Positions 1 to 58,679 of a stretch of 58,757 nucleotides of DNA are shown in pieces; position 1 is the stretch's first letter; each line of letters begins with the position of its first letter. Below the pieces are notes generated by a model. The model saw nothing but the letters and a program-made list of their open reading frames with translations, searched no databases and was not told the origin of the DNA. A program made the translations under genes and the position numbers. Source of the DNA: a virus; the IMG/VR virus record IMGVR_UViG_3300046697_000245, positions 1 to 58,757 of that record. One strand, written 5' to 3'.

Positions 1-318
1 GCTCAGGCTCGTCCACAATGCCCTGCGGTCGGCGGCGCTCAGGCTCGGCCACCATGCCCTGCGGTCGGCGTCGCTCAGGCTCGTCCACAATGCCCAGCGG
101 TCGGCGTCGCTCAGGCTCGTCCACCATGCCCTGCGGTCGGCGTCGCTCAGGCTCGTCCACAATGCCCTGCGGTCGGCGTCGCTCAGGCTCGTCCACCATG
201 CCCTGCGGTCGGCGGCGCTCAGGCTCGGCCACCATGCCCAGCGGTCGGCGTCGCTCAGGCTCGTCCACAATGCCCTGCGGTCGGCGTCGCTCAGGCTCGG
301 CCACAATGCCCTGCGTTC
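1..318. repeat. 36-bp tandem repeat array, about 9 copies
   Basis: A 36-bp unit repeats without spacers; the word ATGCC recurs at 18, 54, 90 and so on to 306. Copies differ at a few fixed positions. Neither strand has stops in the main frames: the plus frame reads as an Arg/Ser-rich 12-mer and the minus frame as VDEPERRRPQG plus Ile or Met. I cannot tell whether either is translated. The array lies downstream of groES and the zinc-ribbon gene, and would lie just upstream of groEL if the genome is circular. The window begins inside a repeat copy, so an assembly break here is possible. Confidence 0.9.
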
Positions 319-387
319 GGCCAATAATTGTTTGATTTCACCAACAAGCTTTCTCTTCATCGCTTACCGCCTTTACTTACAGTTTAC

Positions 388-3755: not shown

Positions 3756-4441
3756 CCATGACGCCTCCCCACTTTCACCTCCAGCGCCTCCAGCGGCGCC
3801 TCCACGGTCTCGACGGGTTGTGCCCCGTTCACCGCGGCTCTATCGCGATGAGCGGGCGGCTGTCCACTGTCCGCTGGCGCCGCCTCGGCTTCCCCGAAGA
3901 TCGGCGCCGCCTCCGCCGCGCCCATCATCCCCCGCTCAAAGAACGATCCCGGCACCTGCGCGCCTTGGCCAGGGCCGCCCCCCTCCGGCGGCATCATCCG
4001 CTCCGTGCCGTTGCGCCCGCTGCGAATCGTTCCCGCCACCACCAGCGCCAGCTTCAACACTTCCATGTGAATTGTGTGCGCCGCCTTCAAGTCCTTGGGA
4101 TCGGTCTCGATCAGCGCATTCAGCCTGCGCATCGCCCGGCGCTCGGTCTCCCGGCAGAGCATATCCTCCACCTCTTCGCGGCGGTTAATGTCGGAGGCGT
4201 CCAGCTTGGCCTGCTCCATGCGCAGTATCTGTTTTTGGATGGCCAGCTCGGCCTGCACATGAGGCCGTTTCAGGAGGGTTCGCGCGTGCTGCTCGGTCAT
4301 GCGCGCGCGGCGCGCGGCAACGCTCAACTTATCTTCCACCGCCCCATAACGCACGTACTGACGCACCAGAAACAGCTCCTGCGAGCTCAGCGACGGCGCG
4401 CGCTTGGGCGTTGCCCCGGTTTTGGCGTTGCTCTTACTCAT
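3752..4441 (-). CDS. terS: terminase small subunit-like protein
   Basis: The product of about 229 residues has an N-terminal helix-turn-helix-like segment (AARRARMTEQHARTLLKR), a helical middle with many charged residues, and a Pro/Gly/Ala-rich C-terminal tail. Size, DNA-binding motif and position directly upstream of terL fit TerS, which recognises the packaging site and regulates TerL. The ATG at 4441 was preferred over an in-frame ATG at 4474 because a purine-rich AAGAGA precedes it; the 11 extra residues cannot be excluded. It overlaps terL by 4 bp. Assignment rests mainly on context. Confidence 0.7.
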   Translation of the reverse strand: MSKSNAKTGATPKRAPSLSSQELFLVRQYVRYGAVEDKLSVAARRARMTEQHARTLLKRPHVQAELAIQKQILRMEQAKLDASDINRREEVEDMLCRETERRAMRRLNALIETDPKDLKAAHTIHMEVLKLALVVAGTIRSGRNGTERMMPPEGGGPGQGAQVPGSFFERGMMGAAEAAPIFGEAEAAPADSGQPPAHRDRAAVNGAQPVETVEAPLEALEVKVGRRHG

Positions 4442-4533: not shown

Positions 4534-7500
4534 CTAGTACTCAATCCCCGCCTTGTCCAGCCGCGCCATCAGGCCGTCGGCGGCGGCGGCGCGCTTTTCC
4601 CCCACTTCCTTGATTGAATTCGTACCTTTTGTCTGCATAATCTTTTTCATTTCCTCTTTCTCGCCGGCATCGGCCCGCTTCCAAATCTCCAGCGCATCAT
4701 CCATTCCCAGATGGTCTACATCATACTGCAATGCTGTCATGCCGGCGCGTTTAACAATTGTCTCAAACTCGCTGTCAGTCCATTTTCCCGCACCTAATTC
4801 TTTCTGGGCTTCATCTGGCCAGCTTGACGTATCCGCGCCCACAGCGCCGGCTTTGCGCAGTTTCATGACCTCTTGCACAATCCGTCGCGACTCCGCCTGT
4901 TTATCCTCATCCTGCGGCTTGTCGGGGATATTGGCTATCCTCATCTTTGCCGCCTGGCGCTCCAGCGGCGTTCTGTAATTGTTCATCTGCAAACCCATGG
5001 CGGTAAAGAACCCATCCACCAGCCCCTCGCTCGACGTGTTCAGAACTTTTTGCACCGGGATCGGCGTACTCTGCTTTGCATAGTTTTTGAAAAAGCTGCT
5101 CTTGGTCTCCTGCCGGCCAAAGTTGTCTCTCCCTGTAATGAACTCGATAGTTGGCCTGACCGTCACCGGATTCAGACGGTTGTAACCCCACTCCACGGGG
5201 TCGGTGATCAGCCCGGCAATATCACCATACACTGTGCGCAGACTGATGCGTTTTCCACCCATAACCGATCCCCAGCGTTCCGGCGTCACCACAGCAAAAG
5301 CATCTTCCGGCTTCCAGTATCCTCCAGCCATTCCCTTGTCATGATTGATTGCCGCATTGACAATGCGGCAAGTCGCATACATCAGCACCGCGCCTCGAAT
5401 CAAGGCTAATCTCTGTTCCCCTCCATATTTTGAGAAGCCCTGCGCCACAAACTGCGCGCGCGCCTTGGTAAAGTCCGGGCTGAAAGTAAGCAGATGCTCG
5501 GCAGCTTTCCAGGTTCTTCCGCTCATAAAATCCAGATGCCGGAAAAACGCCGGATCCTGGCCGCTGAAAGCCGCATTGGTCTGGCTGGCGCTCATTGCGT
5601 GAATCTCATCCGGCGTCATCTTCGCCGCGTGTCCGGGCCTCACTCCGCCGTAGCGGTTCATGTTGCGATCGTCAATGATTTTGTAAGCCTTACCCTTGAG
5701 CCGCGGAATCCAGTCGCGGAAGAGATAACGCTTGTAACTCTGCATTCCCGGCAATCCGCTCAGCACTCCCTCCGGGTCAATGTGCAGCAGTTCCAGTCCA
5801 TGCTTCACGCCCTCCAGCACCTGCTGGTCTTTTGCCAGCACCTTCAAATCCGGCACGCTGAATGGATTGATAAAGTGATCGAGCGCATGGGTTCCTAACT
5901 GCACCTGATGGAAGCCGCTGCCGTAGAGAATTGCTCCCTTCACCTTTGCTCCCGCTGTTTGAGTCCCTCTCAGACCAGCTTTCATTACATTCACCGCGGC
6001 ATGTTCCGAGGGTGTCTTCAACCAGCTCTCCGCCAGCAGGTCGCTGATCCGCCCGGCATAATCCTTGTGAATCAGCAGGTCGCCGCGCATGGCCGCCCTC
6101 TTATCAGCGGGCACGGGAAAGTGTGTATCCTCCGGGCCAAAGAGCTTGCCTTGCTCGGTTTCGCTCATCTTGTCGTAGCCCGGCACCAGCATTTTGCGAT
6201 CAGCCTCCGTCATCTCCCACTCAAAGTTCTTGAGCTGGCTATAGGGCAGACGCACATAGTCGTTCATATCCAGTGGCCGTTTCGGCTGTTGCACAATGCG
6301 AGCATCGCCACTTGCATCCTTGTCCAGCATCGTCCAGCCCGCCCGCGACTCCAGCACGGCGATGGGCTTCAACTTCTCATGCTGATTCAGGTAATCCAAC
6401 ACCTCTTTTATCGCCGTCTCCTGGGTCTGGCCTTTGTTCGTAAACAGCGTGTCTTCCGGGCCTTTCACGTACCACATATCCTTGCCGTCGTCATCCTTGA
6501 GGCTGATGGGTTCAAAGCCCGTGGGCAGTTCCGTGTAGACCTTCGGCTTCTCCACCGTCCCGGTTAGCAGACTCTTGACAAAGCCGCGAGTCATAAATGC
6601 TTTTGTGAAGGAGTCGTGATACGCGCTCAGAATCTTGCCCGCATCCATCGTCTTGGGGTCTTCGCCATGCGCCAGCGCCTCAAAGAAGTTTGGCCAAACA
6701 CGTTCTTTCAGAAAGCCGGGGCTGGGCGCCAGTTCGCTCAGGCTGGCCGCCGCACGGATATTCCCCAGCATCGCCGGGTCACTGGCATACATGTGCATGG
6801 CATAGTGGCTGGCTCCGGCGGGCAGCAGCCCAGCATCAATGAGAATCTTGAGTTGTTGATCGAAGTAATCCCGATGCGCCGCCGCCACCGCTTTCTGTTC
6901 CGGCGTGAGGCGTAGCGCGTCTCTGAAGTCTTGCAGCCGTTTCTGCGCGGCGGGATTGGCCATGTGCCTGACTTCTGCCGCCCACCGCTTCAGTTCCTGC
7001 TCATCTTTGGCTTCGCTAAAAACGGTGATGGCGTTGCGCTCGCGCTCGCTGGGCGCAACGCGCTTCAACTCCTTCTGATAGGTGTCCACATCCATTGCGG
7101 ATTTGAACTCGGCGCCGCGCAGGTCACCCAGGTTCTTGAAGTAATCAGTCCACGGCGCGGGCTTGCTCCAACTGCTCCATGCACCAACGGAAGCGCCATG
7201 CACGGCGCCCAGGGCGCCTTGCAGTTTGGTGCGGCCTGTACCAAACGCATCCCGGCCGGCATCCGAGGCGGCGGTCACGCGCTCTTTCATGGTCATGGAG
7301 CGTTTAGGCAGCTTGGCCAGTTCGCTGATTGCATCTTCCAGCGCATGGCTGGTATCCAGCTTCGACGGTGTAGCGCCGGCCTCCCGGCCGGCTGTCGCGC
7401 GGGCGGCCTCGCCAGCGCGCTGAAACATCGGAAAGCCTTGCTGCATCGCGCTCTGGCGCATCGCGTCGGTCACCGGCAGGTAGGGCACGGTCATATCCGG

Positions 7501-10500: not shown

Positions 10501-13500
10501 GATCGACCCCAGGCTCTTCTCGATCTTGTCCTTGATCGACTTCGGCGCCGCGTCCAGCAGACGTGAATCGTTAAAGACCGACCCCATCATCGCCCGTTCA
10601 ATAAAGGTTTTGCCCTCTTCGCTCAGCGACTTGCCATCGGATTCAAGGTACTGCGGACGCTCCCGCTCGGTCAGCGCGCCGTCCTGCACCATCATCTGCA
10701 ATATCTCCGGGCCCTTGCGACCCAGCACCTCGCGCAGGCTGCTGTCATCCTCATTCTGCATCGCGCTCACGGTTTGCAGGGTCTCCGGCTTCAACTTCTT
10801 CCCGGCGCTCACCGCCCGCTCGCTCACGCCCAGCGCCCCGGTCATATTCTTGTTCAGCTCAGAGCCGATCCGCTGCGCCTCGTCCAGGCTGGCTGGCCGG
10901 TCAATCTGCCGCACCAGCACCGGATATTTCATGCCGACGACCTGCTCCGGCGTCAGGCCATAAGCCGCCGCATCCCGTCTCAAGGCGTCTCGATACGTCC
11001 CACCCCGGCCCTCAGCGTAAACCCGCTGCGTGCTCATTGCCCGCGAGTTGCCGCCCAGCACAGTCCCGTCCGGCGTAATCACCGGCGGGCCGTTCACCGC
11101 GTCCGGGTTGGTATTCACCGTGTAGGCCGGGTCGTAGTTTTGCGCCTGGTCGATCACCCGGTTCTGCGCCTCTTTGCTGCGCTTGTAATCCCGCTCCTGC
11201 ACACCGGCGGGGTACTCCGGATTCGGTTCAAAGCTCTGCGCATGATGGCTGGGTGCAAGGTCGCTCGCCTCTACCAGCCGATAGATCCCCGGCAGCTTCC
11301 GGGTCGGCGTCAGCACCTCCGTCGGCCGCCCATCGTGCCCGCCCACCGCCGGGCGCACAGGCAGTTTCTCCGGTTCCCTGACCGGCTGAACGTCAGGCGT
11401 TAAGTTGGCTGGCGGCTGCGCTTGCGGCCTCGGATTCCCCAGCATCGTTTGCTCGGCGCTGTCCTGCAACACCGCGCGCCCCTGATTCTCCGGCTGCTGA
11501 CCGCTGACCGCTGACGGCTGCGCTTTCTTGTGAATCTCCTCAATCTGCTTCCCCAGCCGGTCCGCCTCCGCCTGATCGCCGCGCGCCAGAGCCTCTTTCT
11601 GCTTCTCGTAGAGCGGGTCAGTCTCCTTCATCGCGTCGGCCTGGCCCTTGGGAACCACCTGCAACTCGCTGACCTGATTCGCCTCGCCCGCCGCGCCGGT
11701 CCGCACACCATACTGGTCCGCCTGCAACCCGTTCGAAGTGATCTTGTCGCGGCTCTCCACCGGCAACTGCTGCTCGACGTTCTGCCGCACGGCGGCCAGC
11801 GCCTCCGGCGTCTCCGCGCTCACCCGCGCCCCCAGATGGTCGATATTCGTCTCGGATGGCTTGCCGCGCGCTGCCTTGTTGGCCTGGCTCTCAGCATCCT
11901 TGACGCGGCTGCCCTCCACCTGCGCTCCCGGCACCCCGGCCACCGCCTGCTCCGCCATGCCTTGCAGCTTCGGCTCCTGCTCCGTCGCCGATGCGCGTAT
12001 CTCCGCCGGCTCCGCGCTCCCCTGCACCACCGGCCGCTCCGCCTCCGGCTGACCGCTGACGGCTGACGGCTGCTCCACCGTTTCACGTGGAACGCCCGCC
12101 GGCGCGGCCAACTCACCAGCCACAAGCCGTACAGGAGCCGGCACCGGAGCCACTGGAGCTTCACCACCGCCTGCCCGCCGCCCGCCAACCGTCAGCGACG
12201 CCGTGGGTCGTCCAGGCACCACCACACTGCCCTCTTCAGGGCTGTAAGAACCTTCCGGACCCGGCGCACGATAAGCTGGGCGGTAACCGGCACGCGCCTC
12301 GACCGGCCCCACACCTACGCGCACACCGCGCTCGCCGTAAGCTCCGGTGTAGCCTTTTCCCTTTGCGCCGAGACCACCGCCCAAAATGGCTCCCACATCT
12401 CCCGCCAGAGCCACGGTGTTAGCACTGGCTCCAATGGTTTGAGCGGCTTTGCTCGCCACCAGGCTGCCAATCGTTCCAAAAACCAGAACCGACGCCGTTA
12501 CTGGAGCATTTATAGCGGCGCCCGCTGCCATGGCCGGCTTGCCAAACGTCTCCATCGCTCCACTGACCGCCTGATGCGCGCCGCCTTCTCGCTCATCAAA
12601 GCTACGCGGGCGAATGCCCTTTCCGGCCAGTACGCGTACTACACCATCCGCTTCCAACTCAGGATACATTGCCGAGACCTTGGCGTAGGCGTCTCCGTAA
12701 TCCTGATCGGTCAACACTCGCATCCCGGCATCGAGGTTCTTTAAGCCTTCAATCGGATGGTAGGGAAGATCGATATGCTCTTCACGCGCAATCCGTGCGG
12801 CCTCGCTCTCGGTCGGTTCCAGGTGCAGCCCGCTAGATACCCCAGGAGCCATATCTTGCAGCGTGTGTCCGGCTTGGCTGTTAGCAAGCCACTCCCGCGC
12901 TTGCTCCAGCTTGCCCTGCTCCGGCGCGGCGCTCAGTTCTGCCTGCTCATGCCCGCGGCCAATCACCGGCGCGGATGGCACCAGTTGCGGCCCACCCTGG
13001 GCTGGCTCTAACGGCACCGCTGGCGCGGGCGTGGGCTTGAATGCATCTTGTGTGCCCAGCGCGGCGCGCGTCCTCTGCTGCAACTCCTCAGCGGCATTCT
13101 GCGGCACGGCCTTTTGCGGGTTCACAAAGGCGCTGGAGGTCATCTTGCTCTGGTCTGCCGGTCGCTGCGCGGGCGCGGGCATCAACTGCAGCCCCTGCCG
13201 CACCATCGGCGGCCGTGCGCGATCGATGGCTTCAACGCCGTAAAGCTGGCCCAGACTGCTCGCCGCTCCCGGCTGTGCCCCAGCCAAAGGCGCGGGCGGC
13301 GCTGTTGGCGCGCTCGGCGTGGCCACGGCCTGTGGTCCTGCGGTCGGCGTCGGCGCGGGAACTGGCGCGGGTGGTGCTTTCGTTTTTAGTGAAGCGATGT
13401 AAGTAGCATACGGATCATCCGCCGGCGTTGGCGGCGTTGGCGGCGCTTTCGTTTTCAGTGAAGCGATGTAGGCAGCATACGGATCTTGCGGTGGCGGCAT

Positions 13501-13572
13501 CCCGCCTGGGGGCGCATTGCTTGCCGTAACTGGTTGTACCGAAGCGTCCACTGTGCCCCCCTTGACTTTCAA
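4534..13572 (-). CDS. giant polyvalent phage protein (about 3012 aa)
   Basis: A single 9-kb frame with several segments. Residues 1-60 hold two copies of a DPYAxYIASLKTKAPP repeat. A Pro/Ala-rich region follows. At about 745-870 there is a DdrB-like ParB-family segment (VITPDGTVLGGNSRAMS). At about 1289-1399 there is a HAD-like segment with permuted motifs. Residues 1505-1715 are helical and contain REEAWHGW. From about 2050 to the end lies a large helical domain with a hydrophobic stretch. Such mosaics are known as polyvalent proteins and are often injected with phage DNA; that role here is inference. Four heptamer tracts are translated in frame as SAVSGQ or SAISDQ. The first codon is TTG; GTG at 13551, after AAGGGGGG, is an alternative. 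Confidence 0.75.
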   Translation of the reverse strand: MKVKGGTVDASVQPVTASNAPPGGMPPPQDPYAAYIASLKTKAPPTPPTPADDPYATYIASLKTKAPPAPVPAPTPTAGPQAVATPSAPTAPPAPLAGAQPGAASSLGQLYGVEAIDRARPPMVRQGLQLMPAPAQRPADQSKMTSSAFVNPQKAVPQNAAEELQQRTRAALGTQDAFKPTPAPAVPLEPAQGGPQLVPSAPVIGRGHEQAELSAAPEQGKLEQAREWLANSQAGHTLQDMAPGVSSGLHLEPTESEAARIAREEHIDLPYHPIEGLKNLDAGMRVLTDQDYGDAYAKVSAMYPELEADGVVRVLAGKGIRPRSFDEREGGAHQAVSGAMETFGKPAMAAGAAINAPVTASVLVFGTIGSLVASKAAQTIGASANTVALAGDVGAILGGGLGAKGKGYTGAYGERGVRVGVGPVEARAGYRPAYRAPGPEGSYSPEEGSVVVPGRPTASLTVGGRRAGGGEAPVAPVPAPVRLVAGELAAPAGVPRETVEQPSAVSGQPEAERPVVQGSAEPAEIRASATEQEPKLQGMAEQAVAGVPGAQVEGSRVKDAESQANKAARGKPSETNIDHLGARVSAETPEALAAVRQNVEQQLPVESRDKITSNGLQADQYGVRTGAAGEANQVSELQVVPKGQADAMKETDPLYEKQKEALARGDQAEADRLGKQIEEIHKKAQPSAVSGQQPENQGRAVLQDSAEQTMLGNPRPQAQPPANLTPDVQPVREPEKLPVRPAVGGHDGRPTEVLTPTRKLPGIYRLVEASDLAPSHHAQSFEPNPEYPAGVQERDYKRSKEAQNRVIDQAQNYDPAYTVNTNPDAVNGPPVITPDGTVLGGNSRAMSTQRVYAEGRGGTYRDALRRDAAAYGLTPEQVVGMKYPVLVRQIDRPASLDEAQRIGSELNKNMTGALGVSERAVSAGKKLKPETLQTVSAMQNEDDSSLREVLGRKGPEILQMMVQDGALTERERPQYLESDGKSLSEEGKTFIERAMMGSVFNDSRLLDAAPKSIKDKIEKSLGSISAIGSRPDEWNLIYAVRPALLRAVAEHTTIARNGSTVELTVNQRSIFGPGRNPVVDALVKVLDEKPNAVRTRFQNFATDAKQNLPGATRMFGGGEAFDAFNHAFGSTLTDEEFHHGIADLNQSDTLAAAGQPQQAAGAGRGAVGAGASRGNAGEVRASAGPVQPAGAPRPTAPTTAGSGSAPAAEVEWRPPNGQTNKIALPVEVRNKVDGSWVSGTARHYSRPTNGIPGLVRVDLADGSTLRDIPAKYVRWPEKQAAGGDAGSTVPPIGAPIDGDIAKLVRERIDKGLPVKIFTRRISREPVEANRRAVDAAIREQFGVSLPITDVKDAGDGAIYDDSSNVEHNTGRILSHTTNPGDEGKPILVDLDGTLRKAEPSGATSPAMPPGGEAVARSQDVAYTDAGRTGSVSAAGGVRNAGEAGNRVPSPRSAGESEVLRIARFTKAKDAAKGRGLHENAVAARPEAVDAAGRRAVALDADSAVLWHRAFAKMTDSAGRNPLGAGQDWLGMTLPEHVSRTGAAIMREAAAAARKDGRNTAADGYDRMAKALAAAKGEDGLTTVLRGDYRDDTAREEAWHGWAIRHELMNSDAMREIATRPEVAEMAARLRKLGYGAGDPAAAQWEMAHELLAKPLAGDPALDATEAERVDVAHAFLTAAVDEFGPEILDDMPPVERSMQRIIDELKGADYGREYDQRIPGGAEPEARERVRPDSGKAFAGDAAAETGRVSREPGAGTRPTAKGDERGAARAGAKEGELKSSRPPSAVSDQQVPAARSGFFQRMRARRAGFVPLQGEAVALPGFEGAVREREAVTALDAELADLHTQHDKAARAYSAAPEGTAQFARANDELDRLDADIERLEEHIRLRHVAQARNLSETGLQLSDRLLAPRPSISGAAGRMERESPLFAGTEAGGMASLFQKQLSAISDQWSDLDKAPTWFLKSARVGETRLGDHAKLKVEQVGNGYEVQDADGSPVKFFGSNSVFRMDQAKMAAEEYKTHLAGPDMTVPYLPVTDAMRQSAMQQGFPMFQRAGEAARATAGREAGATPSKLDTSHALEDAISELAKLPKRSMTMKERVTAASDAGRDAFGTGRTKLQGALGAVHGASVGAWSSWSKPAPWTDYFKNLGDLRGAEFKSAMDVDTYQKELKRVAPSERERNAITVFSEAKDEQELKRWAAEVRHMANPAAQKRLQDFRDALRLTPEQKAVAAAHRDYFDQQLKILIDAGLLPAGASHYAMHMYASDPAMLGNIRAAASLSELAPSPGFLKERVWPNFFEALAHGEDPKTMDAGKILSAYHDSFTKAFMTRGFVKSLLTGTVEKPKVYTELPTGFEPISLKDDDGKDMWYVKGPEDTLFTNKGQTQETAIKEVLDYLNQHEKLKPIAVLESRAGWTMLDKDASGDARIVQQPKRPLDMNDYVRLPYSQLKNFEWEMTEADRKMLVPGYDKMSETEQGKLFGPEDTHFPVPADKRAAMRGDLLIHKDYAGRISDLLAESWLKTPSEHAAVNVMKAGLRGTQTAGAKVKGAILYGSGFHQVQLGTHALDHFINPFSVPDLKVLAKDQQVLEGVKHGLELLHIDPEGVLSGLPGMQSYKRYLFRDWIPRLKGKAYKIIDDRNMNRYGGVRPGHAAKMTPDEIHAMSASQTNAAFSGQDPAFFRHLDFMSGRTWKAAEHLLTFSPDFTKARAQFVAQGFSKYGGEQRLALIRGAVLMYATCRIVNAAINHDKGMAGGYWKPEDAFAVVTPERWGSVMGGKRISLRTVYGDIAGLITDPVEWGYNRLNPVTVRPTIEFITGRDNFGRQETKSSFFKNYAKQSTPIPVQKVLNTSSEGLVDGFFTAMGLQMNNYRTPLERQAAKMRIANIPDKPQDEDKQAESRRIVQEVMKLRKAGAVGADTSSWPDEAQKELGAGKWTDSEFETIVKRAGMTALQYDVDHLGMDDALEIWKRADAGEKEEMKKIMQTKGTNSIKEVGEKRAAAADGLMARLDKAGIEY
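7716..7746. repeat. heptamer tract inside giant gene
   Basis: A GTCAGNN-type tract on the coding strand is translated as QLSAISDQ near residue 1945 of the giant protein. Confidence 0.8.
8203..8233. repeat. heptamer tract inside giant gene
   Basis: Period-7 tract on the coding strand, translated as PPSAVSDQQ near residue 1785. It lies just past the stop codon of the nested 68-codon frame at 8238-8444. Confidence 0.85.
8238..8444 (-). CDS. nested ORF in a second frame of the giant gene (68 aa)
   Basis: A second minus-strand frame reads as a well-composed charged protein: it begins MAGSMTSAFREALNRKHE and contains PPLKPGEYHVSLAPEHDP. The main frame over the same bases reads as low-complexity PGGAEPEARERV-type sequence. 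No strong ribosome site is seen. Either it is a true overlapping gene, or it was once a separate gene and the main frame is a fusion that reads through it. No function is recognised. Confidence 0.4.
   Translation of the reverse strand: MAGSMTSAFREALNRKHEKEFDQIAAKHLREMPPLKPGEYHVSLAPEHDPRQKVMNEVLRERARRKVN
11497..11520. repeat. heptamer tract inside giant gene
   Basis: Three units of the CTGACCG type on the plus strand, translated on the coding strand as QPSAVSGQQ near residue 690. Confidence 0.85.
12049..12072. repeat. heptamer tract next to a parS-like site
   Basis: Period-7 tract translated as QPSAVSGQP near residue 505 of the giant protein. It ends 6 bp from the parS-like sequence at 12079. 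Confidence 0.85.
12079..12094. promoter_or_regulatory. parS-like ParB-binding site, copy 1
   Basis: The minus strand reads CGTTCCACGTGAAACG, sharing the central 14 bases GTTCCACGTGAAAC exactly with the classic bacterial parS consensus. It lies inside the giant gene in a low-complexity linker and is translated as VPRET. The same 14-mer occurs at 44778-44791. Confidence 0.65.
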
Positions 13573-31846: not shown

Positions 31847-32281
31847 TTAGACCTTTGCAGCGGGAGCGCCCGCCGTGCCGGTGATGGCTGTGGCAGCAGC
31901 TTTGGCAGCGGTGATCTCTGCTTCAAGCTCGGCAAACCACGCCTTAGCCTCGGCCACAACTGCTTCCGCTACGAGCACAACCTTGACTCCTGCGCCTGCC
32001 GGCAACGCCGATTCCGCAGTCTTTACGATGGCCTGGAACTCAGCGTTGGTGAAGTCCAAAGTCTTGTTGAGGGCGCCGACAAGTTCCGCGCCCAGGTTCG
32101 CAAAAGCCGCTACTTCCGGCCCGACAGGGCCAAGGAACGGAGCCATGCTTGCGCCGTCCGTGAGCAGCTTTTCGATGGTGGGAGCTTCCGTGTCAACGAA
32201 CACGGCGGCTTTGTTCAAATTGCCCAATACGAAGGCCAGCACGATGCCGCCCCAATGCTTGATAGTTGTGAAAAACTTCAT
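31847..32281 (-). CDS. membrane-anchored Ala-rich helical protein (144 aa)
   Basis: Starts MKFFTTIKHWGGIVLAFVLG after AGGAGA, with one N-terminal hydrophobic segment (residues 10-22) and then a long Ala-rich helical region ending AAATAITGTAGAPAAKV. It may be a membrane-tethered spacer protein, possibly a spanin-like or holin-associated component. Nothing in the sequence settles this. Confidence 0.6.
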   Translation of the reverse strand: MKFFTTIKHWGGIVLAFVLGNLNKAAVFVDTEAPTIEKLLTDGASMAPFLGPVGPEVAAFANLGAELVGALNKTLDFTNAEFQAIVKTAESALPAGAGVKVVLVAEAVVAEAKAWFAELEAEITAAKAAATAITGTAGAPAAKV

Positions 32282-42732: not shown

Positions 42733-43376
42733 TTAGAGGCCTATTTCAAGCCACGCTTCGATGAACGCTTGCGCCGCTGGGAGACAGATTGCGTCGCCGT
42801 ACAGGCGAAGCCGTCCCACTCGGGCGGGACTCCCATGAGCCAACGGCTGTATGCCGGGTCCAGTTGGCCGCCACTTGCCGTCGCGGCCGTACCACCAATC
42901 GCAGTCGGCCCAGAAGCCGCGAGTTGCGCCTGCCTCGGCAACTGATCGAGCCGCGAGCGGGTCGAGCCATCCAGGTCTGTGCAAACAAGGTCGAGCCAGC
43001 CATGTCCAATCGCGGCAGCAACCTGCTCTCCAAAGAGGCTTGCAGGGCGGCGCTCGCGGATGAGCCGTGCCCATTCAGGCCAGAGGTGACGAGGATCTGC
43101 AAACCCTTCCCCTTTGCCCGCTGCGCTAAAGCTGGGGCAGGGACAGCTTCCCGTCCACACGGGCCGGTCGTCGGGCCATCCGGCGTCGCGCAGGGCGCGG
43201 CTCCAGAATCCTCCGCCGGCAAAGAAGTGGCATTGGGTATATCCCACAAGCTCTGCTGCTTTGACATCGGCAATGCTCCTCTCATCCACGTCGCCGGGCG
43301 CAATCGCGCCGGCCTTGATCGCCTCGCGGATCACCTCGGCCTTGAATGGATCGATCTCGTTGTAGTAAGCCGTCAT
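42733..43376 (-). pseudogene. cytosine-C5 DNA methyltransferase, internally deleted and frameshifted
   Basis: The start at 43376 lies 5 bp after the integrase stop. The N-terminal part (MTAYYNEIDPFKAEVI, FFAGGGFWSRALRDAGWPDD, catalytic TGSCPCPSFSAAGKG, HLWPEW, LFGEQVA) is a short phage-type C5 methylase. After WLDLVCTDLDG the frame changes. The family-typical C-terminus (GFWADCDWWYGRDGKWRPTG, then HGSPARVGRLRLYGDAI) is in another minus frame ending at 42733. The target-recognition region and the QRxR motif are missing. I read this as an internal deletion that also shifted the frame, so the enzyme is probably inactive. Confidence 0.7.
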
Positions 43377-43383
43377 AGTTCGC

Positions 43384-44559
43384 TCAGTCCCTGGTCCCGA
43401 GGCCCTTGATCTTCGCCGCCCAGGCCTCCAGCATCTCGCGCCGCTCAGCCGCGTAGGCTGCTCGATTGTACACCCCGCGCACCCCGCCAATCTCGTGCCC
43501 TAACGCCTTTTCCACCACCTCAGCCTTCCATCCCGCCTCGGTCAGCAGCGTCGACGCCGTGCGCCTCAAGTCATGCACCGTGAAGTGCTCCACATGCGCC
43601 GCCCGCGCCACCTTGGCCAGCGTCCGGTTCAGCGCCCCAGCCCACAGCGGCCACGTCAAAGCCTCCCGGCCAGGCAACACCATCTCCACCCGCGGCCCCT
43701 GCATCGCGCGCAACTCCCGCAAACACTCCAGCGATCCATCGCTCAGCGGCACCAGCATCTCCCGGCCCATCTTCGTCCGCCCCGCCGGTATCACCCACTC
43801 CGCCCGCTTCAAATCTACCTCCACCCAGCGCGCCAGCCGCAACTCGCTCTTGCGCACCATCGTCAGCAAAAGCAGCCGGATCGCGTGCCTGTGCGCCTCC
43901 GGAACATTGCGTAATTTCTGCTTGAGTGCTCTTAATACCCGCCTCAGCTCTTCCTCGCTCAGCGCCCGATCGCGCGCCTTGCGCCGCGCCACATAGCGCA
44001 GCGGAGTGGATATTGCCGGGTTGCTGTCGGCCACGCCGCAGACCATCGCATAATCCCAAACCCGCTTGCACAGGCCGCGCAACTTGGCCGCCGCCGCCGG
44101 CCTGCCCGCTTCCAGCTTCCCAAAGATCAACGCCTGCAGCTCCCGCGCCGTCACCTTGTCCATCGGCCGCGCGCCCAGCCGCCGCACAATCTCCCGCTCC
44201 AGCGGCCTGCGCACCGCCGCCATATCCTTGCGCGCCCCGCGAGCTTCCAGGTTCTTCAGGTAGCGCGCCGCAAACTCCTTCACCGTCACCCTGGCCCCGT
44301 AGCCCTGCCGCCGCGCCTGCTCCACGCTGCGCGGATCCTCACCCTGAGCCAACGCCTCCGCCAACTCCCGCGCCCGCTCCCGCGCCGCCGCCAGCGTCAT
44401 CGCCGGGTAGGCGCCCAGCGTGATTCTGGTTGGCTGACTGCTGGCGGCTGACTGCTGGCTGCTGTACCTCCACCGCCAACTCTTTCTCCCCGTAGGCATT
44501 ACCTCCATCTCCAAGCCTTCGCCAAAACCCTGAGTATAGCGGCTCTCGCGAGTCTTCAA
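43384..44559 (-). CDS. int: tyrosine integrase (P4-like)
   Basis: 391 residues from a TTG codon. N-terminal DUF4102-like arm-binding segment (MEVMPTGRKSWRWRY, ITLGAYPAMTLAAARERA), SAM-like core-binding domain (about 90-180) and catalytic domain with Arg236 (VRKSELRLARW), His329-x-x-Arg332 (HDLRR), His355 (LGHE) and Tyr364 (GVYNR). It catalyses integration at attB, normally with excision under a partner factor that I did not find. The arm domain looks about 20 residues shorter than usual, so the true start is unsure. A heptamer tract is translated as SSQQSAASSQ in the arm domain. The upstream gap is a natural attP location. Confidence 0.88.
   Translation of the reverse strand: MKTRESRYTQGFGEGLEMEVMPTGRKSWRWRYSSQQSAASSQPTRITLGAYPAMTLAAARERARELAEALAQGEDPRSVEQARRQGYGARVTVKEFAARYLKNLEARGARKDMAAVRRPLEREIVRRLGARPMDKVTARELQALIFGKLEAGRPAAAAKLRGLCKRVWDYAMVCGVADSNPAISTPLRYVARRKARDRALSEEELRRVLRALKQKLRNVPEAHRHAIRLLLLTMVRKSELRLARWVEVDLKRAEWVIPAGRTKMGREMLVPLSDGSLECLRELRAMQGPRVEMVLPGREALTWPLWAGALNRTLAKVARAAHVEHFTVHDLRRTASTLLTEAGWKAEVVEKALGHEIGGVRGVYNRAAYAAERREMLEAWAAKIKGLGTRD
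44432..44464. repeat. heptamer tract inside integrase gene
   Basis: Period-7/10 units of CTGACTG and CTGGCGG on the plus strand; the coding strand is translated as SSQQSAASSQPT between two strands of the arm-binding domain. Confidence 0.75.
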
Positions 44560-44673
44560 TTCTGCCGGGTTTGGATACCTCTTGTTAATTTAACTATCCC
44601 CTTTCCTATAAGGTTTTCCCCTTAAAATCCAGCGGCCAGCGGGCGGTGGCCAACCCTCAGACCTTCCGGGCAT

Positions 44674-44705
44674 TTGACCGACAACCGACAACTGGCAACT
44701 GTGAC
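44674..44705. repeat. heptamer tract in control region
   Basis: TTGACCG, ACAACCG, ACAACTG, GCAACTG: four clean 7-base steps. Confidence 0.8.
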
Positions 44706-44776
44706 CCGCGCGGCCCTCCGGCGGCGCCCACGTCCACCGGCATGTCCACAGCGGAACAGTTTTTGACTATAACACA

Positions 44777-44792
44777 CGTTCCACGTGAAACA
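44777..44792. promoter_or_regulatory. parS-like ParB-binding site, copy 2
   Basis: CGTTCCACGTGAAACA matches the classic bacterial parS consensus at 15 of 16 positions. It is intergenic, between the integrase and the early promoter. Host ParB is the likely binder because no ParA/ParB pair is recognised in the window. Confidence 0.75.
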
Positions 44793-44840
44793 TCATCTCT
44801 CCCATAAGAGAATATCGCCTCTGTTGATAAATAAAAGAAG

Positions 44841-44870
44841 TTGTCCACACCTTCCACAACTTTTTCCACA
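44841..44870. promoter_or_regulatory. DnaA-box-like cluster A
   Basis: TTGTCCACA (44841-44849) and TTTTCCACA (44862-44870) each differ at one base from TTATCCACA. The 15-mer TCCACACCTTCCACA here recurs at 55378-55392 in the second AT-rich region. Confidence 0.5.
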
Positions 44871-44878
44871 TTATTTAC

Positions 44879-44908
44879 TTGACAACATTGTCATCATTGT
44901 CGTAATGT
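44879..44908 (+). promoter_or_regulatory. rightward early promoter
   Basis: TTGACA (44879-44884), an 18-bp spacer, then TAATGT (44903-44908), the same -10 word as the promoter near 2024. The spacer and -10 carry repeated CATTGTC/TCATCATTGTC words that may be an operator. It precedes the first early gene by about 30 bp. Confidence 0.65.
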
Positions 44909-44939
44909 TCATCATGTAGTGAATCAGGAGGTTCAACCC

Positions 44940-45134
44940 ATGACCACCCGCGAACAGATGATCTCTGAGTTTCTTCGCCAGGCCGAGCGCGAGGCTGCTG
45001 GCATTGAGGAACCGATCATCGTACTGATTCCTTGCGCCATCACGGCGCCCAACTCTAACCCTTGTGTTCAAGCCGCCAGAGAGCGCGTCTACGCCCTCGA
45101 GCTTGAACTGGCCGACGCCTGCCCCTGTTGCTGA
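44940..45134 (+). CDS. first early gene, small Cys-containing protein (64 aa)
   Basis: ATG at 44940 after AGGAGG. MTTREQMISEFLRQAEREAA forms a helix; the rest includes IVLIPCAITAPNSNPC and ends ADACPCC. Four or five cysteines could bind a metal. As the first early gene it may be an anti-host or regulatory protein. No family is recognised. Confidence 0.65.
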   Translation: MTTREQMISEFLRQAEREAAGIEEPIIVLIPCAITAPNSNPCVQAARERVYALELELADACPCC

Positions 45135-45146
45135 AAGAAGATAGCT

Positions 45147-45479
45147 ATGCCGCCGCTGCCCGATTCCAATATCCACGCCAACCTGCTCAAGCGCATCGCC
45201 GATGCGGAGACGCTGCTGGTCTCCCTCAGGCACAGCGTCCGCGCCCTGCGCAATGATGTTTTGCTGGCCAGCAATGCCGGCGCAGCGCACGATGACGGCG
45301 GGGCCGCTCCAGCCAGCAATGAAATCCAGAGCCTGGCTGTAATTGAAAAGGCTTGCATCCTGAATGCTCTGGCCGCCTGCAAAGGCAACGCCTTTAAAGC
45401 CGCCGCCCGGCTGGGCATCGGCAAAACCACCCTCTACCGCAAACTCAAAGAGTACGCGGCTGAGGATTCACACATCTAA
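45147..45479 (+). CDS. Fis-type DNA-binding regulator (110 aa)
   Basis: The N-terminal half is helical and coiled-coil-like (NLLKRIADAETLLVSLRHSV). The C-terminus is a Fis/NtrC-type helix-turn-helix: ILNALAACKGNAFKAAARLG then IGKTTLYRKLKEY. Such domains bind DNA as dimers. There is no sigma-54 ATPase domain, so it is a stand-alone regulator or architectural protein, perhaps controlling early or lysogeny transcription. It is the second gene of the early operon. Confidence 0.8.
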   Translation: MPPLPDSNIHANLLKRIADAETLLVSLRHSVRALRNDVLLASNAGAAHDDGGAAPASNEIQSLAVIEKACILNALAACKGNAFKAAARLGIGKTTLYRKLKEYAAEDSHI

Positions 45480-55202: not shown

Positions 55203-55490
55203 TAAATACCTTATATAAATACCCGTAGTAGCAGTAGTTTCCTGTGGATAAGTGGAGATTCAAGCCAAACCGTTTATTGTGAGCAATTTTGACCACCCCC
55301 AGCCTGTGCATCCTTTTGTGGATAGTTTCTGCAAAATTGGAAAACTCCACCTTATCTCCCACGTTGCGGCCATCCTTTCCACACCTTCCACACCCCCCAC
55401 CTATTCCCCCTGTGCATCCTTCGGATAACTCAGTACAAATACACCTATCTCTTACATTATTATAGGTTTTCAATCCCCTGTTTTTCCACA
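55203..55490. other. AT-richer, origin-like region with DnaA boxes (cluster B)
   Basis: This stretch of nearly 300 bp lacks a convincing gene. It holds a perfect DnaA box (TGTGGATAA, 55243-55251), one-mismatch boxes at 55317-55325 (TGTGGATAG) and 55482-55490 (TTTTCCACA), several TTCCACAC words, and an AT-rich patch near 55451-55470. It shares TCCACACCTTCCACA with cluster A. Taken together it looks like a replication origin used with host DnaA. A 107-codon leftward ORF across it has poor composition and was not accepted. Confidence 0.5.
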
Positions 55491-56999: not shown

Positions 57000-58679
57000 T
57001 TACCGGTTTTGGCTTTGCGGCGCAGACGCGGCCGCCGCCGGCGTGTAAACCGCCGCCTCGCTGGTCAGCACCAGGGCGGCAATTGACACCGCCTTCTCCA
57101 GCGCCACCCGCACCACCTTCACCGGGTCCACAATGCCACTCTCCATCAGATCCTCGTAGTGGCCCGTCGCCGCGTTCAATCCGTAACTGTCGCCCGGGGT
57201 GCTGTATTCAAGGCTTTTTTTCACCTCATCCAGCGCCACGTCAGGGCTGATGCCGGCGTTGGATGCAATCTGCCGCAGCGGGGCTTCAAGCGCCTCAATC
57301 ACCACCTCAACGCCCATCCGCGCCGCCTGGCTCATCTTCCCCAATTCATATTCACGCGCCTTGATGGCCTGCGCCGCCTTCAGCAGCGTGATGCCGCCGC
57401 CCGGCACCACCCCCTCAGCCTTGGCCGCCTTGGCGCTGTTGACCGCATCCTGCACCCGCGCCTTCGTCTCATCCAGGGCTGTGCGCGTCAGGCCGCCCAC
57501 ATGCAAAATCACCACACCCTCGCTGAGCCGCGCAATCCGCTGCGAGAGCATCTCCTTCTCAAAGTCGTCATCGGTGGCCGCGCGCAGCGTGCGCAGCTCC
57601 TCGGCCCGCTGCCGCGCCGCCTCCACAATCTCATCCTTGCCTTTGGCGGCATGTTCCACGCCCACTTCAATCAGCTCTGTCCGGTCGGGATGCACCACCG
57701 CCAGCGCGCAACTTCCCAGCTCCTTCAGGCCAAAACGAGATAGAGCGTTGCCCATATCGGGCGAGTAGACCGTTGCCCCGGTCGCCTCGGCCAGATCCCG
57801 CAGGCACTCCTTGCGCCGCGCTCCCACCCCCGGCGCCGTCACCGCGCAGCTTTGCAGCGTGCCCCGCGCCACGTTATGCACCATCATCGTCAGCGCATCG
57901 CCAGCCACCTTCTCCGCCACCACCAGCAGCGGCCGCCCCGTCGGCGCCACACACTCCAGCAGCGGCAGCAGGTTCATCGGGCTGTTCGGCGTCCTCGGGT
58001 CCGCCTGCGCAACCTCCCGCTCGCTCAGCAGGATGTAAGGCCGCTCCAACACACAGTCAGCGCCCCGGTTCACAAAGGCCGGATGCACCCAGCCCGCATC
58101 CCACTGAAAGCCCTCGCGCAACTCTGAATGCGTCTCCCGCCCCAGCGCGTCATCGATGATGACCATGCCTTCCGGCCCCACCCGCTCCACCGCGTCGGCT
58201 ATATGGCGCGCAATCTCCGCATCGCCGTGCAGGCTCACCGTAGCTGTTTGGGCAATCAGTTCCGGAGTGGCCTCTATCCGAGCCTCGGCAATGCGCTCCT
58301 GTGCCCACCCGGCAGCAACTTTCAGCCCTTCGGCCAGCTCCAGGCGATCCACCCCGCTGGCCACCAGCTGCATTCCCTTGTGCAGCATCGCCGCGGTCAG
58401 CACCACCGCCGTCGTGGTGCCGTCGCCAACGGCTTCATCGGTGGATGCCGCCACCTGCCGCAGCAGGCGCGCCCCGGCCGCCTCCAGCGGCTCCTCAGGC
58501 TCAATCTCCTTCACCACCGATACCCCATCCAGCGTCGCCCGCGGCGCCCCAAACGCACTGCAAATCAGAACGGGCCGGCCCTTGGGCCCCAATGTCGTCC
58601 GCACCGCCTCCGCCACCGTCATCACACCGCGCATCACCGCCTCGCGCGCCTCATTGCCCTTCGCTATCTTGTTTGACAT
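57000..58679 (-). CDS. groEL: GroEL-like chaperonin (Cpn60)
   Basis: 559 residues, full length. ATPase residues are kept: Asp51 in TLDGVSVVKEIE, Asp86 in VGDGTTTA, and the aspartate near 397 in VQDAVNSAKAAKAEG, then GVVPGGG and YGLNAATGHYEDLMESGIVD. The apical domain is divergent. The C-terminal GGM tail of bacterial GroEL is replaced by an Ala/Pro/Gln end. It folds proteins inside a double ring with GroES. GAGGGAGCGAGG precedes the ATG. With groES at 540-1037 on the same strand, the gene order is groES then groEL if the genome is circular. Confidence 0.95.
   Translation of the reverse strand: MSNKIAKGNEAREAVMRGVMTVAEAVRTTLGPKGRPVLICSAFGAPRATLDGVSVVKEIEPEEPLEAAGARLLRQVAASTDEAVGDGTTTAVVLTAAMLHKGMQLVASGVDRLELAEGLKVAAGWAQERIAEARIEATPELIAQTATVSLHGDAEIARHIADAVERVGPEGMVIIDDALGRETHSELREGFQWDAGWVHPAFVNRGADCVLERPYILLSEREVAQADPRTPNSPMNLLPLLECVAPTGRPLLVVAEKVAGDALTMMVHNVARGTLQSCAVTAPGVGARRKECLRDLAEATGATVYSPDMGNALSRFGLKELGSCALAVVHPDRTELIEVGVEHAAKGKDEIVEAARQRAEELRTLRAATDDDFEKEMLSQRIARLSEGVVILHVGGLTRTALDETKARVQDAVNSAKAAKAEGVVPGGGITLLKAAQAIKAREYELGKMSQAARMGVEVVIEALEAPLRQIASNAGISPDVALDEVKKSLEYSTPGDSYGLNAATGHYEDLMESGIVDPVKVVRVALEKAVSIAALVLTSEAAVYTPAAAASAPQSQNR

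Follow-up and report, generated by a model that had tools for sequence, protein, structure and literature searches.

A parS-like palindrome between the integrase and early genes of a phage, and its possible capture of host ParB

Gene setting and the two parS-like sequences

The window, by which we mean the entire 58,757-nt stretch of viral DNA that was analysed, carries TerL (phrog_979) and other phage genes, namely those for GroEL, GroES, a lysozyme and a DNA methylase, as judged from Pfam and phrog matches. The features of concern here are collected in Table 1. The integrase has arm-binding, core and catalytic domains, and its start is likely the TTG codon at 44559. A TTGACA hexamer is located at 44879, upstream of the first rightward early gene, and the product of the next rightward gene, with its Fis-type helix-turn-helix, is a candidate regulator. 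At the left end of the window (1-320) we also observed tandem repeats with a unit of ~36 bp (GCTCAGGCTCGTCCACAATGCCCTGCGGTCGGCGTC).

Table 1. Positions of the parS-like sites and neighbouring features in the window
Feature	Position	Strand	Remarks
Polyvalent virion-type protein, 3005 aa	4534..13551	-	phrog_5143, phrog_2299
Site B, exact 14-mer core, flanks C and G	12080..12093	-	inside the 3005-aa ORF
Tyrosine integrase	43384..44559	-	PF00589, PF13356, PF22022; phrog_1
Intergenic control region, integrase vs rightward early genes	44560..44939		
Site A, parS-like palindrome C-GTTCCACGTGAAAC-A	44777..44792	+	counterpart in relative G004 with 1 mismatch
DnaA-box-like 9-mer	44822-44830	-	one mismatch to TTATCCACA
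DnaA-box-like 9-mer	44841-44849	+	one mismatch to TTATCCACA
DnaA-box-like 9-mer	44862-44870	+	one mismatch to TTATCCACA
First rightward early gene, 64 aa, no assigned function	44940..45134	+	
Fis-type helix-turn-helix protein	45147..45479	+	PF02954, E 5e-14

We observed that the 14-mer GTTCCACGTGAAAC occurs exactly at both places where the initial annotation had put it, at 44778-44791 on the plus strand (site A) and on the minus strand at site B. That annotation had set the chance expectation well below one in a thousand, in agreement with our computations: Markov models of order 1-4 built on the window predict 0.00025-0.0007 exact copies for both strands together, and 2 are seen. For GTTNCACGTGNAAC, the core palindrome of chromosome-type parS, which is present at both sites, the same model orders predict 0.0018-0.0039 copies, and two are seen. 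Matches with up to 3 mismatches showed no clear enrichment (7 against 3.5 expected). The sites had also been described as near-perfect parS, and this is accurate for the 14-mer core but not for the full 16-mer TGTTNCACGTGNAACA, which neither site contains: site A (C-core-A) departs from it by a single mismatch, a 5' C for T, and site B (C-core-G) has neither of the flanking bases that fit parS. The outer bases of known parS sites often vary, so that the 16-mer mismatch lowers the case for parS membership and does not exclude it.

Site A lies between genes and upstream of both its neighbours, with 219 bp to the leftward integrase and ~150 bp to the rightward gene at 44940, and it stands at the start of the lowest-GC 150 bp in the whole window (44776-44925, 37% GC). 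Site B is coding, and is read as the codons GTT CCA CGT GAA AC (V-P-R-E-T) in the phase set by the ORF start at 13551.

Conservation in relatives and partition gene content

Relatives were found by alignment-based scans, with distant terminases (A2) and then near ones (A3), which yielded 49 viral loci; scans with the integrase or TerL as single proteins found none. The closest relative found was G004, a record of 61.8 kb that is largely colinear with the window and whose TerL is 66% identical, with most matched proteins 30-66% identical and the integrase 48%. In G004 the sequence TGTTCCACGTGGAGCA at 4143-4158, which has one mismatch in the core, is the only match to the site with at most 1 mismatch, and it sits in an intergenic gap of 145 bp, with the leftward integrase block on one side and the rightward early genes on the other, which is the position equivalent to site A. 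By chance, 0.0002 matches of this kind would be expected in the gap.

The remaining relatives gave a different picture. G013 and G014 (TerL 44% identical) arrange their integrase and early genes in a similar way but lack the site, as does G010, whose integrase is located elsewhere. Across 500 kb from 53 loci whose integrases are 31-48% identical, a match with at most 1 mismatch was present only in G004, and a 476-kb Acidobacteriota plasmid that served as a background control contained no exact match. Exact copies of GTTNCACGTGNAAC in five relatives were considered as possible conservation and rejected, because they are coding at conserved protein positions and thus reflect protein conservation: those in G033 and G027 are FHVEQ codons of a conserved small protein, and those in G001, G022 and G043 are VARGT codons of a structural-type gene. 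We found no related prophage in genome contigs and, when an attP core equal to host parS was considered, no integrated copy of the phage.

For site B, a search of the whole of G004 with at most 1 mismatch found no counterpart. Since it is coding, lacks both parS flank bases and is not conserved, site B is probably a coincidence and most likely has no share in any function as a parS mimic. Absence from close relatives, which the initial annotation had named as grounds for refutation, applies to this site. Of the two sites that the initial annotation had interpreted as parS and proposed for a conservation check, only site A, intergenic and kept in place in G004 with one core mismatch, thus retains that interpretation.

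Two further observations concern gene content in the two phages. An ORF at window 42741-43490 on the minus strand resembles part of a cytosine methyltransferase, and its G004 homologue is the gene that separates the parS-like site from the integrase; local gene order therefore differs between the phages. The window GroEL (Cpn60, phrog_5725; 57000-58679) is 52% identical to that of G004, and the GroES match is elsewhere in the window.

Searches of the window for ParB_N (PF02195), ParA of the AAA_31 type (PF13614) and HTH_ParB gave no matches, and a Pfam scan of 60 window ORFs revealed no canonical ParA or ParB. The window accordingly has no recognisable self-contained ParABS system, in which ParA and ParB genes lie near parS, although it may encode a strongly diverged ParA. 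The earlier statement that no ParA or plasmid ParB gene is recognised therefore holds for canonical ParAB, but has to be qualified by one match to the ParB superfamily, a DdrB-like domain (PF18763, ddrB-ParB, E 1.7e-18) at residues 751-883 of the 3005-aa protein. Domains of this kind typically occur in phage polyvalent proteins and are predicted to be NTP-regulated nucleases, not partition factors (PMC5512222). G004 also encodes a giant protein with a ParB-like stretch, NGHHRLQLAQ (locus L276, ~31946-32122), that is distinct from the DdrB-like domain of the window; it matches phrog_1033, a ParB-like partition protein, at E 4e-4, with HTH_ParB below the cut-off. No homology was detectable between the ParB-like domains of the two giant proteins, and a PDB sequence search with the G004 domain returned nothing useful.

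parS-type sequences in viral contigs

We compared the occurrence of the parS 14-mer in viral contigs with that of its reversed control, and observed at least 120 stretches with the former against 52 in total for the latter. Among the matches listed, a left T was present in 86/136, a right A in 85/136 and both in 63/136, whereas both flanks accompanied the reversed control in 7/52. Also among the matches listed, 14/62 of those with both flanks were clearly noncoding, compared with 1/28 of those with neither. A two-class mixture model, which is rough in assuming independence of flanks and coding state, and whose input population may contain contaminating host DNA as well as phages that have Par systems of their own, gave an intergenic, A-flanked match (like site A) a chance of ~0.88 of belonging to the genuine-parS class, and a coding, unflanked match (like site B) a chance of ~0.09. 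The class of viral 14-mers to which site A belongs thus consists mostly of genuine-looking parS. A ParB_N match accompanied the full 16-mer in 1/49 records among the matches listed; many of these records are short fragments, and this scarcity is only suggestive.

Several viral records contain clusters of the full 16-mer. In one of 116.7 kb (G088, locus L110), 24 exact TGTTNCACGTGNAACA sites lie within ~91.7-112.4 kb, and several of them mark the beginning of small genes (MFHVKH starts), either on the start codon or immediately ahead of it. These sites adjoin a strong ParA (AAA_31, E 6e-63, 90915-91454) and no ParB_N match was found; the locus may be either a fragment of a chromosome or a Par system whose ParB went unrecognised. 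A record of 169 kb (G060, L042) has 12 exact 16-mers, at least 7 of them in the first 6 kb, and no ParB_N or ParA match; a third (G051, L020) has three at 6637-6894, two of which abut (6863 and 6879), and no ParB_N match.

Possible capture of host ParB, alternatives and known systems

We favour the reading, to which we assign a probability of about one half, that the phage has one parS mimic, site A, by which host ParB would be captured close to the control region of the integrase and early genes. The exact 14-mer is rare, a match recurs in the syntenic gap of G004 despite protein identities of 30-66%, the background is low in 500 kb of integrase loci and in the 476-kb plasmid, viral 14-mers show a population-wide flank bias, canonical ParAB is absent from the window, and SGI1 provides a precedent (PMC10954446). 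We infer host ParB binding, clamp loading and all of the downstream effects as follows. The phage genome would be circular after infection or excision, and chromosomal ParB of the host would form a clamp on the DNA at 44778-44791 and slide across the flanking AT-rich control region. Via ParA or SMC, the loaded ParB would then position the replicating phage genome near the nucleoid or help to retain it there, and ParB spreading could dampen or silence the two flanking promoters.

Several observations weaken the parS-mimic reading. Conservation extends to one relative only, in which the core is off consensus at one position, and the site is missing from G013, G014, G010 and every other relative found through its integrase. 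The 5' T is absent from site A. Also, a prophage has no need of separate partition once it is integrated, and an ectopic parS can be harmful, both of which count against such a site. A lone, slightly off-consensus palindrome like site A would fit a weak ParB recruiter, since it is a strong ectopic parS that might do harm in an integrated prophage. ParB is found in most bacteria and parS is nearly invariant, so that a phage could exploit ParB in many hosts.

The location between divergent operons in both phages, and in G004 only 16 bp upstream of the leftward start codon, would also suit an operator through which a phage or host regulator, either the Fis-type protein encoded by the second rightward gene or an unrecognised repressor, controls the divergent integrase and early promoters, with the likeness to parS being incidental. 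We consider this unlikely, as many repressors would require further copies in the region and none is present, the window helix-turn-helix gene has no detected homologue in G004, and it is improbable that both phages would fit parS by chance with only a single deviating position each. We give similarly low credence to the suggestion that neither site is functional and that a rare 14-mer was simply picked from many windows and motifs. Such an account is consistent with the near-match counts, the coding and unflanked state of site B, the FHVEQ and VARGT codons in other relatives and the lack of site A in most of them; however, it demands that two rare events coincide at the same location, namely the exact 14-mer in the window and, within the syntenic 145 bp of G004, a match with one mismatch.

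A role for site A as part of a DnaA-dependent origin, or of an attP with integrase arm sites (TTGTCCACA, TTTTCCACA), appears quite improbable. The low-GC segment, three DnaA-box-like 9-mers within 50 bp and the adjacent integrase are in keeping with it, but AT-richness favours chance box matches and another AT-rich cluster, at 55243-55490, has an exact TTATCCACA plus two near copies and is a candidate origin, so that the boxes near site A are weak evidence for an origin. Moreover, the G004 region has no box cluster, and a 7+7 palindrome without a spacer is unlike a typical tyrosine-recombinase core; an origin here would in any case leave room for a parS mimic next to it. Finally, it is very improbable that site A is the target of the phage's own ParB-superfamily domain, which is part of the injected giant protein, since the domains of the two phages, PF18763 in the window and the phrog_1033-like stretch in G004, are not detectably alike and ParB domains of the DdrB-like type are predicted to be nucleases with no relation to partition (PMC5512222).

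If host ParB does load on the phage DNA, the parS mimic would offer a simple route to borrowing segregation machinery without partition genes, and would link the maintenance of the phage, or the control of its promoters, to ParB clamps and the loading of SMC. Such ParB loading lends itself to direct tests with known ParB proteins, for which the many viral contigs with the full 16-mer would provide easier model phages. A broader proposal, which we advance only tentatively and regard as doubtful, is that mimics of chromosome-type parS are widespread in the control regions of temperate phages lacking ParAB, which would rely on host ParB (and SMC) for genome positioning or regulation, with this lineage as one instance.

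In the open-access papers searched, we found no report of a phage with chromosome-type parS but no ParAB. Extrachromosomal mycobacterial prophages carry their own partition cassette. These parABS-bearing prophages (PMC7157519) resemble the present case as phage genomes with centromere sites and differ from it in that cassette, whereas the window phage has an integrase and no ParAB that we could find. The core of site A is identical to that of chromosomal parS, the site of ParB (Spo0J), for which a published search rule uses the consensus TGTTTCACGTGAAACA with two mismatches allowed (PMC10197239); in contrast to chromosomal parS, the phage copy is single and intergenic, lacks the 5' T and is accompanied by no recognised ParA or ParB on the phage. 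The closest published parallel is SGI1, whose parS-like elements hijack the ParABS system of IncC plasmids by binding the ParB of the helper plasmid (PMC10954446). SGI1 mimics a plasmid parS and its binding has been demonstrated, whereas the putative mimic in the phage is of the chromosome type; like SGI1, the phage would be a mobile element that bears its parS mimic in cis and relies on a ParB encoded elsewhere.
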